Shown here piece by piece: positions 7,885 through 29,496 of a DNA stretch of 64,000 nt. This DNA comes from an uncultured bacterium (lineage in GTDB: Bacteria; Bacillota; Clostridia; Oscillospirales; Oscillospiraceae): positions 1 through 64,000 of the forward strand of contig CAMCCC010000011.1 in NCBI GenBank assembly GCA_945873205.1, read 5' to 3'. The stretch's first letter is position 1; every line of letters begins with the position of its first letter. A program made the translations under genes and the position numbers. Below the pieces are notes generated by a model. That model was not told where the DNA came from. It ran no database searches and saw nothing but the letters and a program-made list of their open reading frames with translations.

Positions 7885-8036
7885 AAGCCTTCCCCTGGAG
7901 GGGAAGGTGCCCAGTGCGCACACTGGGCGGATGAGGTGGAAATCTTGCTTTTTTGACAGAAGTTCCTGCTTTTTCCCAGTTTTTTGCCACCTCATCAGTC
8001 GGCTTTGCCGCCAGCTTCCCCTCAAGGGGAAGCCTT
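7885..8036. repeat. Palindromic intergenic repeat, copy A
   Basis: About 152 bases. In order: hairpin CCTTCCCCTGGAGGGGAAGG (7889-7908), palindrome centred on GCCCAGTG/CACTGGGC (7909-7928), ATGAGGTGG (7931-7939) paired with CCACCTCAT (7987-7995), small hairpin CGGC/GCCG (8000-8010), and closing hairpin GCTTCCCC/GGGGAAGC (8014-8033). Copies B (14149-14299, inverted) and C (29341-29496) share this order and much of the sequence. It is the main content of the gap between 7801 and 8134. Confidence 0.85.
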
Positions 8037-14148: not shown

Positions 14149-14299
14149 AAAGGCTTCCCCTTGAGGGGAAGCTGGCGGCGAAGCCGACTGATGAGGTGGT
14201 AAGTGAAAACCAGAAGAAAGCAGGGACTTCCGTCAAAAACGCAGGATTTCCACCTCATCCGCCTCACTTTGTTCGGCACCTTCCCCTCCAGGGGAAGGC
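14149..14299. repeat. Palindromic intergenic repeat, copy B (inverted)
   Basis: About 151 bases, the reverse complement of copies A and C. It starts with AAAGGCTTCCCCTTGAGGGG and ends with CCTTCCCCTCCAGGGGAAGG. The GATGAGGTGG/CCACCTCAT inner arms and the stretch GTCAAAAACGCAGGATTTCC match copy A closely; the GCCCAGTG palindrome is degraded. It lies between convergent genes. Confidence 0.85.
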
Positions 14300-14314: not shown

Positions 14315-15493
14315 TCAGGGCAGAGTGACAGTGCCGGTCTGCTTCATGCTGCCGGCGGCCCCGGTCATGAGGGCGTAGCTCGCCCCGCTTTTCAGGCCGT
14401 CAAGGGCCAGGAAGGCGGACTTGATCTCCCGCCCCGGCTCAAATTCGCAGACGGTCTCCCCTTTTGCGTCCCAAAGAGCAAAGCGCTCCCCTTCCGGCAC
14501 TTTCAGCTTCCCGGCATAGCAGGGGATGCCGGCCTCCAGGCTGGGCTTGATGTCCTTATCCCGGCCCAGGGCCAGCAGGCTGCCGCCGCTAACCGTCAGC
14601 GCTGCTGCATCAATGGCATCATTGCCGGAAACGATCTGACTGTCCCCGCCGCTGATCTCTACCTTGCCGGGGGCGCTTTTCGTCCCAGCCTTCAGGCCGT
14701 CGGCCTGGGCCTGGACTTCCAGCCGCCCGCCGGTGATCCGGATGTCCTTCTCGGCACAGAGGCCCTGATCCCCGGCCTGTACCACGATGCTGCCGCCGGT
14801 GATGCGGATATTGCCCTTGCCCTCTTTCTTGGCGTCGCTGGTTTTGATGCCCTCGTTGCCGCACTGGATGGACAGGCTGCCGCCGGAGATCTCCACGCTC
14901 TCGTTGCCTTTGAGGCCGTTGTTGACGGCGATAATGGTGCAGGTGCCGCCCAGAATGTCAATGTCGTTTTTGCAGCCGATGCCGTTATTCAGATAGCCCT
15001 CCACCACCAGGCTGCCGGGGCCGTGGAGATCAATGTCGTCCTCCGCCTGCAGGGCCGCGCCGCTGGCATTGGGGTCGGCCACCAGCTCCCGCTCCGCGCC
15101 GGAGACCAGGCGGCTCTCGGTATCGGGCATGGTATAGATGTCCGTGTCCCCCGCCCGGCGGATGTGCAGGGCGGCGTTACCGGCGCAGCGGATGCTGACC
15201 CCGTCCAAAATCAGCTGCACGTCCTGCTTCTCCTCGCCGGTGTCCACCACCACCTGCCCGTCAGAAAGGCTGCCGCTGAGACGGTAGGCCCCGCCGGTGC
15301 TGATGGTGAGAACGCCGTTTTCAAAGCGGGCGCCGGGGCCCTTGATCTCCGCGCCGGCATCGCTGAGGGCCACAGTGGTGGCCTTGGCGCAGAGCTGTTC
15401 CAGTTCGGAACCGCCGCTCTTGTCCTGGCTGCCGCAGGCGCAGAGCCCCAGGCTCAAGCTCAGCAGCAGGAGACAAACAACAAGTTTTTTCAT
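14315..15493 (-). CDS. Surface lipoprotein with DUF4353 beta-helix (carbohydrate-binding-like)
   Basis: 392 residues. Signal peptide with CAC lipobox, lipidated Cys at 20. The body is a run of short repeats of the form ISGG-xxI/V ... G(N)DG/NDAID, e.g. VEISGGSLSIQCGNEGIK and IRITGGSIVVQAGDQGL, the pattern of the DUF4353 (Cthe_2159-type) right-handed parallel beta-helix. The founding member binds calcium and acidic polysaccharide. It is the last gene of the CotH-VTC-DUF4956 operon and overlaps the DUF4956 stop by 4 bases. Extracellular; binding of an anionic polymer is inference. Confidence 0.82.
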   Translation of the reverse strand: MKKLVVCLLLLSLSLGLCACGSQDKSGGSELEQLCAKATTVALSDAGAEIKGPGARFENGVLTISTGGAYRLSGSLSDGQVVVDTGEEKQDVQLILDGVSIRCAGNAALHIRRAGDTDIYTMPDTESRLVSGAERELVADPNASGAALQAEDDIDLHGPGSLVVEGYLNNGIGCKNDIDILGGTCTIIAVNNGLKGNESVEISGGSLSIQCGNEGIKTSDAKKEGKGNIRITGGSIVVQAGDQGLCAEKDIRITGGRLEVQAQADGLKAGTKSAPGKVEISGGDSQIVSGNDAIDAAALTVSGGSLLALGRDKDIKPSLEAGIPCYAGKLKVPEGERFALWDAKGETVCEFEPGREIKSAFLALDGLKSGASYALMTGAAGSMKQTGTVTLP

Positions 15494-16152
15494 ATCATGT
15501 CCTTATCCTTTTCCCGGCCGCAGATGACGGTCAGGTTCCCGTTGCGGCAGCGGATCTCATCCAGAAAAGCCTTGCTGATGCCGGCGTCCTTCAGGCGCAC
15601 CTCATAGCACAGCTCATACAGGGTGCCCATGTTGGTGGTCTTAACCCGCACCAGCTCGTGGGAGAGGGTGTACTGCCGGAACAGATCGTCAAACAGGCCC
15701 TCGTAGTCCAGGTTCTCCGGGATGGTGATTTTCAGCTGGCGGCAGGCGGGGCTGCCCTCGCCGAAGCGAAGCCGGCCCAGGATCAGCACCGTGGCCCCCA
15801 TGATCACGAAGAACAGCGCCGCCAGACCCACATAGCCCATGCCGCAGGCCAGGCCCAGGGACACGGACAGGAACAGCCCGGTGATCTCCCTGGCCGTACC
15901 CGGCACGCTGCGGAAGCGCACCAGGGCGAAGGTGCCCGCCACGGCCAGACCCGCGCCCACATTGCCGTTGACCAGCATGATCACCACCGTCACCACCGGC
16001 GGCAGCAGGGCCAGGGAAATGGTCAGCGAGCCGGTGTGATAGCTCCGGGCGGTGAACACCAGGGCGGTCAGCAGGCCCAGCACCAGGGCCGACAAAACAC
16101 AGATCAAAAAGCTGGGGACCGTCACGACCCCGTTGATTACACTGCTAAGCAA
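15490..16152 (-). CDS. DUF4956 membrane protein
   Basis: 220 residues. Four hydrophobic segments in the first 130 residues with the conserved cytoplasmic loop AGTFALVRFRSVPGTAREI, then a soluble C-terminal half. This is the DUF4956 pattern. The function is unknown; the family is repeatedly found next to VTC-domain polymerases, as here. It overlaps the VTC gene by 8 bases and the lipoprotein gene by 4, so the set is translated together. Confidence 0.85.
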   Translation of the reverse strand: MLSSVINGVVTVPSFLICVLSALVLGLLTALVFTARSYHTGSLTISLALLPPVVTVVIMLVNGNVGAGLAVAGTFALVRFRSVPGTAREITGLFLSVSLGLACGMGYVGLAALFFVIMGATVLILGRLRFGEGSPACRQLKITIPENLDYEGLFDDLFRQYTLSHELVRVKTTNMGTLYELCYEVRLKDAGISKAFLDEIRCRNGNLTVICGREKDKDMI

Positions 16153-16867
16153 TTACCATCACTCCGTCAAAATATTTTTCCAACAGTTCCTTCTGATAGC
16201 ACTGGCCGTATTTGGAAAAGCCCCGGGGAAAGATTTCCAGGCGGCTGAGCATATGGGCCAGCCACAGGGGCGCCGCCTCCGGCAGCTTGATCTCCATCAG
16301 CACCTGACCGTCAGCGAGCAGCTCCTGCCCCCGGTCCCCGGCGGTAAGGCTCAGGTCCGTCTCCCGCCAGCGGATGGAGCTGTCAAAGGTGATGCGCAGC
16401 TCCGGGTCCTCCTTTGCCACATAGGCCCGGCGGTCGCAGGCGATGAGCACCCGGGGGCTGACCGGGTTGGTTTTCAGAAACCAGTCGATCTCCCGGCTGA
16501 TCTGGCCCTGATCCGGTGCGGTGGCCGTCCCGGCCAGCCAAGACTCTGCCGCTGCGGCCGGCATGGCCACCCGGCGCTTGTACACCACGCCCTTGTATTT
16601 CTTTTTCAGCTCCACAAAGACCGGGTCCTCCGGCCCGGGCACATTGTAGCTTCTCAGCCGAAGCTTCTCCTTGTACACCGGTTTATCCAGGGAGTGCCGG
16701 ATCAGGCGGAAATCCTCCCAGTCATAATACACGCTGCATACGGTGCTCTGGAAAAAGCGGTCCGGCTCCACAAGGGGCGCCAGCTCCTGCCACAGGGCCT
16801 GGTACTTTTCCCGGCTCAGCAGATATTTTTTCTCATAGCGCTGGAAGGTGAATTTGGTTTCTTTCAT
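16145..16867 (-). CDS. VTC-domain polyphosphate polymerase-like protein
   Basis: 240 residues, a stand-alone VTC domain. Tunnel features seen: N-terminal FQRYEKKY, KEKLRLRSY (basic), FVELKKKYKGVVYKRR (Glu plus basic cluster), MEIKLP, and the C-terminal SKYG. In yeast Vtc4 this tunnel makes polyphosphate from ATP; bacterial members are largely untested. The first Met follows directly on the CotH gene (4-base overlap). Cytoplasmic side is likely, partnered by the DUF4956 membrane protein. The product could be polyphosphate or another phosphate polymer; this is inference. Confidence 0.85.
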   Translation of the reverse strand: MKETKFTFQRYEKKYLLSREKYQALWQELAPLVEPDRFFQSTVCSVYYDWEDFRLIRHSLDKPVYKEKLRLRSYNVPGPEDPVFVELKKKYKGVVYKRRVAMPAAAAESWLAGTATAPDQGQISREIDWFLKTNPVSPRVLIACDRRAYVAKEDPELRITFDSSIRWRETDLSLTAGDRGQELLADGQVLMEIKLPEAAPLWLAHMLSRLEIFPRGFSKYGQCYQKELLEKYFDGVMVIA

Positions 16868-19290
16868 TGGCCTCTCTCGATCGCTCCGAAATACTGCTCC
16901 CGCTGGGTCTGATCCAGGTCAAAGAGGGAACAGAGATTGTCGATGTTCAGCTTCTGCCAGTCATAGTCCAGCAGAACCTGCTTCATCTCCTCCACGGCGT
17001 TTTCCCATTCCGCCACGCTGCGGTGAAAGCGGGCGCAGTCCCGCTCCACCTCCGGCCGGACAATGGCGCAGAGCCGGTCGGTTTCGGCAAAGACATTCTC
17101 CACCGTCAGCACACTGCCCATCAGCGCCGCCGCCCGGGTCAGGAAACGGTCTTTGAAGTCCTCGTTTGCCATCAAGGGCACAATGAAGGTGGAGACCTGG
17201 CGGTTCTCCCTGGCGTACTGGCTCATCAGATTCATGTAGACGCTGGCCGGCTCGGAGAAGGTGGCGTCCAGGTCGTAGAACATCATGCGCCACTTTCCGT
17301 CGTTCTCCGTGGAGCGGCAGTAGCGCACGTTGCCGGAGCTCACATCCGTATTGGCGCAGTAGCCCTCCAGAATCAGCCAGTCGATGAGACTGTCCACATC
17401 GAAGATGTCGCAGAAGTGCTGGTAGTTCTCCGGCAGGCTCATGTCGTTGAAGCGGCAGAACTCCACCACCTCATGGTAAAATTCCGAATCCAGGGGCACG
17501 TTGGCCTCCATCACGGTGACGCTGTCCCGGCTGACCCCGGCAAGGCTGGCATACAGCTGCTCATTGGTCTTTTCCTTCAGGGAGTAGATGCCGGAATACA
17601 CGCCGTTGATGTACAGCACGCAGTATTGGCTGCGCTGGTTCACCACCCGGTCCGTGGCCTGGGCGCAAAGCTCCTGGCACAGCTCGTTGCGGATAATGGA
17701 GCGGGGGAAGTCCTGGCCGGAGCGAAGCAGCAGATTGGTGAATTCCGTAACCCCGCCGCCATAGATGTCATAGTCCAGGGTGGCCTGACCGTAGGCGTCC
17801 CGGAAGCGGACAGCCATGTTCTTCTTGGGCAGCACCAGACTGGTCTCCCCGTTCATGGACACGCCACAGCCAATGGTGAAGCCCTCCCCGCCGTCATAGA
17901 GGGACAGGCTGGCCGGCAGCTCAATGCCCTTCTGGCGGCCGTTGTACATGGTGTCGAACTCCCAGGGGCTGTCCGTCAGCAGGCTCAGCACCGGCAGGCT
18001 GTGGTTTTCGTTGAGAATAAAGCTGAGGCTCAGCGTCCGGCTGGGCAGGGCGCCCTCCTCCAGATTCACGGCCCGGATGACGGTGGTCTTATCGATATAG
18101 ATGGGCCCGGTATATTCCTCGCTGTCCGCCGTGGGGGCGGAGCCGTCGGTGGTATAGCGGATGCTGCCGGTGGCGGAGAGCTCCACGGTGATGCCCTCCA
18201 CGTCGTTGAACACCCCGTCCTTGGTGAGGCTTACCGGCTTTTCCGCCACGGTGCGGCTGCCGCCGGTGTTTTCTTCTCCCGGACTGGCGGAGGCAAAGTA
18301 GAACCAGCCGCTCTCCCCCTCCTGCCGGCCATAGCTGGCGTGATAGGGGATGTCCCGCAGGGAGGCAAAGTCCAGCAGCTGCCCCTGACTGTCGGAGAGG
18401 TAGAGCTGCTCATTGCCGTCGTCCAGACCGAAGCCGGTGCTCAGGGTGGTCTCCAGCAGGGGCTGCTCCTGGGTGCAGAACACCAGCCACAGCTCCCCCG
18501 GCTGCAGGGTCTGCTCCGGCAGGCGGAATTTTACCAGGTCATCCCGGTCGTCAGACAGGCAGTAGTCCGACAGCAGCACCGGCTGGTCGGAGACGTTTTT
18601 CAGCTCCACCCAGTCGTAATATTCCCCCATTTGGGGCAGGGTGGAGCGATTAAAGACCACCACCTCGTTGATCGCCAGGGGGCTGTCGCAGCTGAGACTC
18701 TGCTGAAAAGCCTCGTAGCCCGCCCTGCTGTTTTCATAGCCCGGCGTAGGGTACAGGCTTTGCTCATAGCTGCCGTCGGCGCGCAATACCATGGCCACAT
18801 CCCCCTGGCAGTCGCCGCAGAGGGCAGAGGCGATGAGGGTTCCATGCTCATTGCGCAGATAGACCCCCTCATCCCCGGAGAGGGCGAAATCGGTGTGCAG
18901 CTGCTCCCCCTGCCGGTCCTTGCCGGAGGCGAAGAGCAGCAGCCGCTGCCCCGGTTCCAGGCTGGTTTCCGGCAGAGTCCACCCCAGCTTATTCTCCTTG
19001 TCGGATATGGTCCAGCCGGAGAGGGAGACCGTCTCCCCGCTCTGATTGTACAGTTCGATCCAGTCGGAGAAATCCCCGTCCCCGTCCCGGAGGGTGGCCC
19101 GGTTCTTCTCCATAAACTCGCTGATCACCACCTGCCCCAGGCCCCGGTTCCGTTCCTCCGGGCTGAGGGTAGGCGCCGGCGTGGCCGTTGGCGTGGGCGC
19201 AGGGGAGGGCTCCGGCGCCTTTTGGCAGCCAACGCAGAGCAGGGCGGCGGCGATCAGGACAGGTATCCATTTTATTGCTTTCTTGCCCAT
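16864..19290 (-). CDS. CotH-kinase lipoprotein with lamin-tail domains
   Basis: 808 residues. Lipoprotein signal ending CVGC (Cys 22) and a Pro/Thr-rich linker to about 46. Two lamin-tail domains follow (about 50-160 with DWIELYNQSGETVSLSGW; about 190-310 with YDWVELKNVSDQPVLLSDY). Then comes a chitobiase-like C-terminal beta domain (IRYTTDGSAPTADSEEYTG) and a CotH kinase fold from about 435, with LLLRSGQD, NGVYSGIYSLKEK and WRMMFYDLDATF. CotH proteins phosphorylate Ser in spore-coat or secreted proteins. The start at 19290 gives the signal peptide; AAGGA lies upstream. First gene of the four-gene operon. Confidence 0.9.
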   Translation of the reverse strand: MGKKAIKWIPVLIAAALLCVGCQKAPEPSPAPTPTATPAPTLSPEERNRGLGQVVISEFMEKNRATLRDGDGDFSDWIELYNQSGETVSLSGWTISDKENKLGWTLPETSLEPGQRLLLFASGKDRQGEQLHTDFALSGDEGVYLRNEHGTLIASALCGDCQGDVAMVLRADGSYEQSLYPTPGYENSRAGYEAFQQSLSCDSPLAINEVVVFNRSTLPQMGEYYDWVELKNVSDQPVLLSDYCLSDDRDDLVKFRLPEQTLQPGELWLVFCTQEQPLLETTLSTGFGLDDGNEQLYLSDSQGQLLDFASLRDIPYHASYGRQEGESGWFYFASASPGEENTGGSRTVAEKPVSLTKDGVFNDVEGITVELSATGSIRYTTDGSAPTADSEEYTGPIYIDKTTVIRAVNLEEGALPSRTLSLSFILNENHSLPVLSLLTDSPWEFDTMYNGRQKGIELPASLSLYDGGEGFTIGCGVSMNGETSLVLPKKNMAVRFRDAYGQATLDYDIYGGGVTEFTNLLLRSGQDFPRSIIRNELCQELCAQATDRVVNQRSQYCVLYINGVYSGIYSLKEKTNEQLYASLAGVSRDSVTVMEANVPLDSEFYHEVVEFCRFNDMSLPENYQHFCDIFDVDSLIDWLILEGYCANTDVSSGNVRYCRSTENDGKWRMMFYDLDATFSEPASVYMNLMSQYARENRQVSTFIVPLMANEDFKDRFLTRAAALMGSVLTVENVFAETDRLCAIVRPEVERDCARFHRSVAEWENAVEEMKQVLLDYDWQKLNIDNLCSLFDLDQTQREQYFGAIERGQ

Positions 19291-19326
19291 TTTTTCTCGC
19301 TTTCCTTGGACATAAAAATACAGGAT

Positions 19327-19355
19327 ATTATACCGCTTTTCCGTCCGCTCGTCAA
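19327..19355 (-). promoter_or_regulatory. Promoter of the CotH-VTC operon
   Basis: On the - strand: -35 TTGACG (19350-19355), 17-bp spacer, -10 TATAAT (19327-19332). About 30 bases before the CotH start. Confidence 0.85.
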
Positions 19356-19367
19356 TGCGGCGGACTA

Positions 19368-19396
19368 TTGATAATTGCCCGGAGCGCTGATATAAT
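19368..19396 (+). promoter_or_regulatory. Promoter of the asparaginase operon
   Basis: -35 TTGATA (19368), 17-bp spacer, -10 TATAAT (19391). Only 12 bases separate its -35 from the divergent CotH -35. Confidence 0.85.
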
Positions 19397-19429: not shown

Positions 19430-20428
19430 GTGAAAAACATCCTCATGCTGGGTACCGGCGGCACCATTGCCTCGGAGATGACCCCCGACGGGCTGACGCC
19501 GGAGCTGCGGCCGGCCCAGCTTCTGAAATACGTCCCCGCCATCAAAGAGCTGTGCAATGTGGACTGTCTCTCCCTGTTTAACATTGACAGCACCAACATC
19601 ACTCCCCGCCACTGGTGCGCCATGGCCGCCGCCCTGGAAGAAAACTATGACCGTTACGACGGCTTTGTCATCAGCCACGGCACCGACACCATGGCCTACA
19701 CCGCCGCGGCCCTCAGCTACATGGTGCAGGGGGCGGATAAACCCATCATCCTTACCGGTGCTCAGAAGCCTATCAACTATGACTCCACCGACTCCAAGCT
19801 GAACCTGACCGACGCCTTTGTCTGCGCCTGCTCCGAGGAGCTGGCGGGGGTGGACATCGTGTTCAGCGGCAGGGTCATTCTGGGCACCCGGGCCAGAAAG
19901 ACCTGCTCCAAGAGCTTCGCCGCCTTTTCCAGCATCAACTACCCGGACCTGGCCATTTTGCAGGATCACCGGCTGATGCGCTACATCGCGCCGGAACGGC
20001 GGCAGCGGCCCCTCTTTGCCCACAGCCTCTGTGAAAAGGTGGCCCTGGTGAAGATGGTCCCGGGGGCGGAGCCGGAACTGCTGGACTTCCTGCTGGCGCG
20101 AAACGACGCCTTGATTATCGAGTGCTTCGGCGTGGGCGGCCTGCCCTCCTATGACGACAGCCGGCTGTTTGACCTGGTGCAGCGGCACACGGCGGCAGGC
20201 AAGTTCATCGTCATGACCACCCAGGTGCAGAACGAGGGCTCCGACCTGTCGGTGTACTCCGTGGGTCACCGGCTGAAAAGCAACCCCTATGTGCTGGAGG
20301 GCTTTGACATGACCACCGAGGCCGTCTATGCCAAGATGATGTGGATCCTGGCCCAGACCCATGATGTGGATGCGGTGAACCGGCTGTTTTACACCCCGGT
20401 GGCCCATGACATCCTGCGCCGGGCCTGA
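19430..20428 (+). CDS. ansA: Type I L-asparaginase
   Basis: 332 residues. Hydrolyses asparagine to aspartate and ammonia. The two active-site threonine motifs are present: MLGTGGTIAS at 7-16 and SHGTDTMAYTAAALSYM near 84. The length and the lack of a signal peptide fit the cytoplasmic type I enzyme. The GTG start at 19430 follows GGGAGGT. Two flavoprotein genes follow on the same strand with small gaps. Confidence 0.93.
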   Translation: MKNILMLGTGGTIASEMTPDGLTPELRPAQLLKYVPAIKELCNVDCLSLFNIDSTNITPRHWCAMAAALEENYDRYDGFVISHGTDTMAYTAAALSYMVQGADKPIILTGAQKPINYDSTDSKLNLTDAFVCACSEELAGVDIVFSGRVILGTRARKTCSKSFAAFSSINYPDLAILQDHRLMRYIAPERRQRPLFAHSLCEKVALVKMVPGAEPELLDFLLARNDALIIECFGVGGLPSYDDSRLFDLVQRHTAAGKFIVMTTQVQNEGSDLSVYSVGHRLKSNPYVLEGFDMTTEAVYAKMMWILAQTHDVDAVNRLFYTPVAHDILRRA

Positions 20429-29340: not shown

Positions 29341-29496
29341 AAGCCTTCCCCTGGAGGGGAAGGTGCCCAGTGTGTGCACTGGGCGGATGAGGTGGAAATG
29401 CTGCACTTATTGACGGTAGTCTCTACTGTTTTCAGGCATATACTGTCCACCTCATCAGTCAGCCTGCGGCTGACAGCTTCCCCTCAAGGGGAAGCC
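29341..29496. repeat. Palindromic intergenic repeat, copy C
   Basis: About 156 bases in the same orientation as copy A. It begins AAGCCTTCCCCTGGAGGGGA, continues with GCCCAGTG/CACTGGGC-type palindrome and GGATGAGGTGGAAAT, and ends with CCACCTCATCAGTC and the GCTTCCCC/GGGGAAGC hairpin. The centre differs from copy A. It fills most of the 328-base gap 29298-29625. Confidence 0.85.

Follow-up and report, generated by a model that had tools for sequence, protein, structure and literature searches.

Introduction

PPK1 is held to be the main bacterial maker of polyphosphate (polyP; PMC10657179), and the VTC complex of yeast links polyP production with translocation of the chain, by way of a channel whose lining is basic (PMC9911596). 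In Gram-positive pel operons, genes for a CotH protein, a polyP polymerase and the membrane protein DUF4956 form an accessory group beside pelDEADAFG, arranged as cotH-PPP-DUF4956(-DUF4832) (PMC7112168, PMC12345266), and the NELoc-2 locus of Clostridium perfringens contains a VTC-CotH-HEAT-glycosyltransferase cluster (PMC2879425). Here we describe a four-gene operon at positions 14315-19290, minus strand, of a stretch of 64,000 nucleotides (the window) from an uncultured member of the Oscillospiraceae. Its genes overlap and encode, in order, a CotH-family lipoprotein with lamin-tail domains (LTD), a VTC-domain protein, a DUF4956 membrane protein and a Cthe_2159-family lipoprotein; the host is a gut bacterium.

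An original prediction, made from the sequence, had read the operon as a possible surface phosphate-polymer system, no part of which was established as a pathway. The latter statement went too far, as CotH, polyP polymerase and DUF4956 had already been published as Pel accessory genes (PMC7112168, PMC12345266), so that three of the four parts had a published link, in one setting. Novel with respect to the literature that our search covered are the near-obligate pairing of VTC with DUF4956, the existence of two types of surface partner, of which the window is the combined form, the distribution of the pair outside Pel loci and where PPK1 was not detected, and a full-length match of DUF4956 to MgtC, obtained with a control. 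Our literature search, with preprints and most subscription papers outside its reach, found no publication in which VTC and DUF4956 are presented as obligate partners.

Results

VTC and DUF4956 form a near-obligate pair

We surveyed 119 genomes drawn evenly from the phylum, including that of the window. The 15 genomes with VTC were also the 15 with DUF4956; each family had 22 copies in total, and the two counts were equal in every genome. Of the 22 pairs, 21 were adjacent on the same strand, the remaining one (G062) being split between two contig ends; DUF4956 follows VTC in 18 adjacent pairs and precedes it in three (G024:C32, G101:C80, G009:C18). The surface families are also associated with VTC, since 13 of the 14 genomes with CotH and nine of the 13 with Cthe_2159 (11 of them over the cut-off) are VTC genomes. 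Hypergeometric p values for co-occurrence with VTC, which ignore kinship, were 2e-19 for DUF4956, 2e-14 for CotH and 3e-7 for Cthe_2159, and these counts, together with adjacency, ruled out chance clustering of the operon families. Within about 4 kb of the 22 pairs we found CotH only in 11 cases, Cthe_2159 only in seven, both in one (the window) and neither in three. Among 14 control genomes, the same three matched VTC and DUF4956, in three phyla including an archaeon, a result that concerns presence and not adjacency. Corynebacterium glutamicum, one of the controls, matched VTC, DUF4956 and CotH.

The genome of the window (2.22 Mb) carries a single CotH gene but three genes each for VTC, DUF4956 and Cthe_2159 (the last from five matched stretches). 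Its other two VTC loci (contigs C13 and C33) both read VTC-DUF4956-Cthe_2159 and adjoin divergent histidine-kinase and response-regulator genes. The genome is 91% complete, and searches of it for PelG and PPK1 found neither. In the whole survey, PPK1 was present in 17 of the 119 genomes, and none was found in nine of the 15 VTC genomes.

Related loci were collected by scanning named genomes with the VTC protein of the window and retaining the best 80 of 547 confirmed loci, a set biased to kin of the window; the closest VTC relatives came from Oscillospiraceae and related metagenome assemblies. DUF4956 adjoins VTC in 77 of the 80 loci. When start codons are assigned by rule, the overlap between the two genes can be measured in 76 pairs and is exactly 8 nt in 67 of them. 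The pair was also present in all five records found in a plasmid collection, which belong to five genera including an actinomycete; by Pfam, three of them carry CotH, one Cthe_2159 and one neither. In the Enterococcus plasmid record the intervening genes are those of a response regulator and a histidine kinase. No VTC relative was found in viral contigs, and viral structure models gave no match at E 0.001 or better.

The core comprises two deep subfamilies with different surface partners

We classified 76 of the related pairs by their neighbours (L123, counted as a pair, is missing from this classification only through an overlap filter). CotH and Cthe_2159 accompany 21 pairs, Cthe_2159 lies on the same strand in 24 and divergently in 20, and the rest comprise three pairs with CotH only (two cut by contig ends), six at a contig edge and two with neither. 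Within these 80 loci, chosen by similarity to the window, the exact four-gene set was found in one Oscillospiraceae-like clade only, in 21 loci besides the window. The idea of a four-gene system conserved beyond close relatives therefore survives in part: linkage goes far beyond chance and the VTC+DUF4956 core is widespread, but the surface partners are interchangeable and the complete set was found in a single clade.

A tree of VTC and DUF4956 combined (97 rows), built by a quick method with Shimodaira-Hasegawa-like approximate likelihood ratio test supports (SH-aLRT) only, midpoint rooting and some long branches flagged, separates 13 rows from the other 84, both supports being 100. Eleven of the 13 carry CotH; L172 was considered as a further CotH locus and set aside, as its Pfam match is to a cell-wall-binding protein and not to CotH. 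When the 11 CotH-type rows are compared with the 84 others, the median identity of VTC is 22.6% and that of DUF4956 21.1%. The core is thus made of two deep subfamilies, one with CotH and one with Cthe_2159. The 28-row clade of the window lies within the 84 rows and comprises 22 rows with both partners, three without CotH and three without Cthe_2159, and CotH presence on the tree needs three changes. Because the clade sits inside the Cthe_2159-type half, the window lineage is, as judged from this tree, of the Cthe_2159 type with CotH in addition, and CotH would have joined it separately or been lost and regained. A CotH tree lacking the minus-strand CotH sequences grouped the window CotH with those of G024:C32 and G101:C80, a placement to which we give no weight.

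The VTC protein shares mapped tunnel residues with Vtc4

The predicted tunnel-type polyP polymerase (16145-16867, minus strand, 240 aa) has no visible export signal. It matches the Pfam family PF09359 at E 5.4e-39 (134.6 bits against a cut-off of 23) over profile positions 1-232 of 235, and VTC is its sole Pfam family at E 0.001, with no SPX or transmembrane (TM) domain. A single-sequence search of the PDB gave no relative; the VTC profile preferred catalytic yeast Vtc4 (3g3q, E 9.2e-11) to Vtc2 (1.6e-4) and Vtc3 (2.2e-4), with positions after 171 of 242, the C-terminal part, unaligned. In the alignment K14, R70, R72, K88, K97, R99, R146 and R158 correspond to Vtc4 K200, R264, R266, K281, K294, R296, R361 and R373, residues which we take to be catalytic. 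Seven of these eight positions (K14, R70, R72, K88, K97, R146 and R158) reach a conservation of 97% or more across the 97 rows of the tree. On the full-length domain and the shared tunnel residues, we assign the protein to PF09359.

DUF4956 resembles MgtC over its full length

The DUF4956 gene (15490-16152, minus strand) starts with TTG and encodes 220 aa (Pfam 2e-12). Its AF2 model (pLDDT 77) shows five helices followed by a beta-alpha-beta-beta-alpha-beta C-terminal domain, which in structure searches matches ferredoxin/ACT-like folds; the TM part was unmatched, which proves nothing. A PDB search for a relative of solved structure gave no match at E 0.001 or better, and the profile search against the PDB a single non-significant one (FliQ, E 0.62). 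K and R are abundant in loops 35-40 and 76-90 (means 1.5 and 2.9) and nearly absent from the opposite loops (0.05, 0 and 0), which places the former two and the C-terminus probably in the cytoplasm. Loop 76-90 contains the signature R79-F80-R81, conserved to 97% or more across the same 97 rows.

Comparison of the DUF4956 and MgtC profiles by hhalign gave a probability of 96.2, E 2.7e-9 and a score of 64.8 over 197 columns, whereas the top score among 20 block-shuffled controls was 38 (probability 67, E 5.2e-5, 28 columns). Weak matches to Pfam MgtC were present in 26 of 64 DUF4956 members, more than for any other family except DUF4956 (the next, MFS_Mycoplasma, had 13 of 64); the MgtC profile matched all five DUF4956 proteins of the plasmid collection, and an MgtC genome search picked up two DUF4956 copies below the cut-off. 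A streptococcal homologue has been described as MgtC plus ACT (PMC12345266). The full-length, collinear profile match, extending over the membrane helices and the ACT-like domain, identifies DUF4956 as a predicted distant homologue of the MgtC/SapB family. It differs from that family in falling under the curated cut-off of Pfam MgtC (PF02308; 10.9 against 31.4 bits), in its own RFR signature and in its linkage to VTC.

The two outer proteins mostly carry predicted export signals

The Cthe_2159-family (PF14262) lipoprotein (14315-15493, minus strand, 392 aa, lipobox LCAC) matches its Pfam family at E 1.2e-55 (189.1 bits) and has PDB relatives 4peu/4phb (E 2.4e-35); the domain and the beta-helix relative of known structure place it in this family. 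The fold is reported to bind acidic sugar polymers. The window protein shares the beta-helix family with Cthe_2159 of C. thermocellum (4peu/4phb), but unlike it is encoded with VTC and DUF4956. In loci L151 and L153 a Cthe_2159-like gene lies directly after VTC.

The CotH-family lipoprotein (16864-19290, minus strand) has 808 aa if translation begins at the ATG of position 19290; the mechanically called open reading frame begins further upstream, at 19623. It consists of a lipobox-like LCVGC, two lamin-tail stretches, a CHB_HEX/Fn3-associated domain and a CotH kinase domain (residues 478-773), with Pfam values of 8.7e-37 (127.8 bits) for CotH, 3.1e-29 for LTD (two stretches) and 3.4e-14 for CHB_HEX_C_1. 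A single-sequence search of the PDB found no relative and the profile search only a beta-hexosaminidase stretch; the AF2 model (mean pLDDT 73.7) has as its top PDB match the B. cereus CotH structure with Mg/AMP (5jda, E 3.2e-12, TM-score 0.73 by target). Residues K489, K490, E573, N647, D649, N654, D673 and D675, which we take to be active-site residues, are invariant in 11 clade sequences including the window. Domain, modelled fold and these residues point to membership of the CotH kinase family (PF08757), and the lipoprotein is likely a protein kinase. The only one of the 14 CotH genomes without VTC (L065, G072:C9:3231-4304) has, in the alignment, Asp at both Asn positions of the N-x-D...N motif.

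We applied one permissive rule for export signals to all proteins with intact 5' ends. Signals were found in 77 of 77 Cthe_2159, 35 of 36 CotH and two of 101 VTC proteins, compared with 497 of 1034 other neighbouring genes; for lipoboxes alone the counts were 64 of 77, 13 of 36, one of 101 and 57 of 1034. The remaining 13 of the 77 Cthe_2159 homologues, without lipobox by this crude rule, have a hydrophobic N-terminus. These counts make the predicted surface placement firm for Cthe_2159 and fair for CotH.

The pair is not confined to Pel loci

In Streptococcus intermedius, deletion of the CotH, VTC or DUF4956 gene does not abolish Pel production; loss of DUF4956 or of CotH lowers aggregation in sputum medium by more than 50%, with Pel up in the former mutant and down in the latter, and the authors of this 2025 study state that they failed to find the three-gene CotH-VTC-DUF4956 arrangement outside a Pel locus (PMC12345266). 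In our survey PelG was found in four of the 119 genomes (three over the cut-off), and among the 15 VTC genomes only in G105. Nine sampled genomes besides that of the window have CotH about 4 kb or less from the pair, and eight of these nine have no detected PelG (one of the eight, G113, is 78% complete). Since the window genome lacks a detected PelG as well, a Pel-only role was rejected. The flanks of nine other loci (97 genes) gave no Pel-scale match among the first 25 of 104 families, and in the same listing neither did the flanks of eight loci with CotH beside the pair.

The window operon thus shares three of four families with the pel accessory genes and differs in three respects: PelG was not detected in its genome, its fourth gene is Cthe_2159, and its core belongs to the Cthe_2159 subfamily, whereas the Pel-linked locus L175 falls in the other. 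In L175 (1176-10755), Pel genes (DUF2194, a DUF3492 glycosyltransferase and PelG) are followed by two CotH genes and then by VTC-DUF4956. Locus L170 (2902-11967) has VTC-DUF4956-CotH behind a cluster of epimerase, glycosyltransferase family 2 (GT2), LRR/bactofilin-like and DHHW/AlgX-like genes, of a different exopolysaccharide type. In Acetoanaerobium (L216:8480-10066) a PLD-family gene follows VTC-DUF4956 in place of CotH or Cthe_2159.

NELoc-2 also shares VTC and CotH with the window, and its VTC gene is followed by a membrane protein of 222-226 aa labelled tubulin/FtsZ, which is probably DUF4956; it differs in adding surface protein, HEAT and glycosyltransferase genes (PMC2879425). A 67-kb plasmid of Planococcus maritimus (L220:4470-12824) carries VTC, DUF4956, CotH, a protein of about 690 aa, HEAT and GT2 in the gene order of NELoc-2.

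Operon layout and neighbouring elements

According to the open reading frame list, successive genes overlap by 4, 8 and 4 nt, all on the minus strand, in agreement with the 4-8 bases originally noted. The single shared promoter of the original prediction also has a counterpart, as one promoter-like site, TTGACG-17-TATAAT (19327-19355, minus strand), with 11 of 12 positions of a sigma-70-like consensus, lies 5' of CotH. The Pfam identities of the four parts and the export signals of the outer proteins are likewise as had been proposed. A Shine-Dalgarno-like AAGGAAAG (19300-19307, minus strand) was read 9 nt 5' of the CotH ATG. A divergent promoter-like site, TTGATA-17-TATAAT (19368-19396, plus strand), faces the next gene; the consensus scan, a sequence match only, found four such sites in the region against 1.4 expected in shuffles. 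NCBIfam matched none of the four operon proteins.

Directly 3' of the operon (14153-14298), and again at 7888-8033 and 29344-29495, there is an imperfect palindromic element with GCTTCCCCTTGAGGGGAAGC-like arms. With nine matches on both strands at six places in the window, against 0.02 expected, it looks like a small dispersed repeat.

An OmpR-type regulator and a histidine kinase adjoin many VTC-DUF4956 loci of both partner types (L013:774-2725, L014:147-2113, L166, L168, L169, L174, L177-L179 and L181); neither was seen beside the window operon.

Discussion

A cytoplasmic enzyme that is tightly paired with a membrane protein and accompanied by an exported third gene product accords with the logic of the yeast VTC complex, here realised with new parts. 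Like Vtc1/3/4, the window has a VTC tunnel polymerase with the same mapped residues that is tied to a membrane part; it differs in consisting of two separate small proteins, in a polymerase without SPX or TM domains, in an MgtC-like membrane part and in its surface-protein partners. By this analogy and the predicted features of the proteins, the reading we hold most plausible, though tentatively, is that VTC and DUF4956 together are the prokaryotic equivalent, made of two proteins, of the VTC complex of yeast, and that they make polyP at the membrane and probably export it to surface partners. Given the identities of the parts, their near-obligate pairing, the catalytic-type residues, the placement in cytoplasm, membrane and surface, and the two partner types, we infer the following course of synthesis, docking, export and outside binding. 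The cytoplasmic VTC tunnel enzyme would build polyP from the gamma-phosphate of ATP; DUF4956, with its ACT-like domain and R-F-R loop at the cytoplasmic face, would dock the enzyme on the membrane, and an oligomer of it would guide the growing chain across. Outside, a CotH-type kinase or a Cthe_2159 lipoprotein, depending on the subfamily, would receive or respond to the polymer. A bolder extension, which we regard as very unlikely, is that exported polyP held by surface Cthe_2159 serves CotH as phosphoryl donor for surface proteins or matrix, an idea that arises because CotH should meet little ATP outside the cell.

Several observations speak against this reading. The predicted TM helices of DUF4956 hold few basic residues, none of them conserved, unlike the channel lining of the yeast complex, and the only basic residues conserved throughout are R79/R81 in the cytoplasmic loop; kinship with MgtC suggests regulation as readily as transport. 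VTC loci L114, L151 and L153 (three of 80) show no DUF4956 in the fetched stretch, and the pairs of G009, G023 and G062 have neither CotH nor Cthe_2159 as a neighbour, one of them being cut by contig ends. PPK1 is enriched with VTC and not mutually exclusive with it, six of the 17 PPK1 genomes having VTC (p 0.008). Finally, the section of PMC12345266 on the S. intermedius deletions gives no reduction of aggregation for the VTC mutant, which is not what one linear pathway predicts.

Some of these observations would suit polyP that stays inside the cell, with DUF4956 as an MgtC-like regulatory or anchoring subunit sensing ATP or phosphate through its ACT-like domain, and with CotH and Cthe_2159 co-regulated and never touching the polymer. 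The full-length profile similarity to MgtC and the mostly cytoplasmic basic residues are consistent with it, and histidine kinases in 53 and OmpR-type regulators in 49 of 102 fetched loci (single-linkage clusters with Pfam-confirmed examples) fit co-regulation. Exported partners recur, however, in both deep subfamilies, with Cthe_2159 both in line and divergent, which exceeds what co-regulation needs, and we consider an intracellular role somewhat unlikely. Less likely again is an exopolysaccharide or biofilm accessory module, in which CotH phosphorylates matrix or surface proteins, VTC and DUF4956 tune phosphate or phosphorylate the polysaccharide, and polyP export is beside the point. The published position of CotH-VTC-DUF4956 beside pelDEADAFG (PMC7112168), the altered Pel and aggregation of DUF4956 and CotH deletions (PMC12345266), the Pel genes of L175, the GT2 and AlgX/DHHW-like synthase cluster of L170 and the GT2 of the Planococcus plasmid favour such a module, but PelG is present in only one of the 15 VTC genomes and was not found in that of the window, and the 97 genes flanking nine other loci held no Pel-scale match among the first 25 of 104 families.

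The VTC protein itself could be no polyP polymerase at all, its tunnel fold serving another phosphoryl transfer or binding a polyphosphate-like ligand. The triphosphate-tunnel superfamily is catalytically diverse, and the low similarity to Vtc4, with profile positions after 171 of 242 unaligned, leaves room for this. Against it, the top PDB match is the catalytic Vtc4, and seven of the eight basic positions mapped onto it keep a conservation of 97% or more across 97 rows whose two subfamilies have a median identity of 22.6%, making this explanation decidedly improbable.

In conclusion, the printed impression of VTC-DUF4956-CotH as a Pel-only arrangement is corrected, and DUF4956 gains a defined partner, VTC, and a testable role. 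If the two-protein VTC complex is what we propose, bacteria and archaea, including genomes without detected PPK1, would have a second way of making polyP, one coupled to the membrane, and the complex would serve as a simple model for the coupling of synthesis and translocation by VTC complexes. It would also give polyP a way to reach bacterial surfaces, and may give exported CotH kinases a phosphate source.

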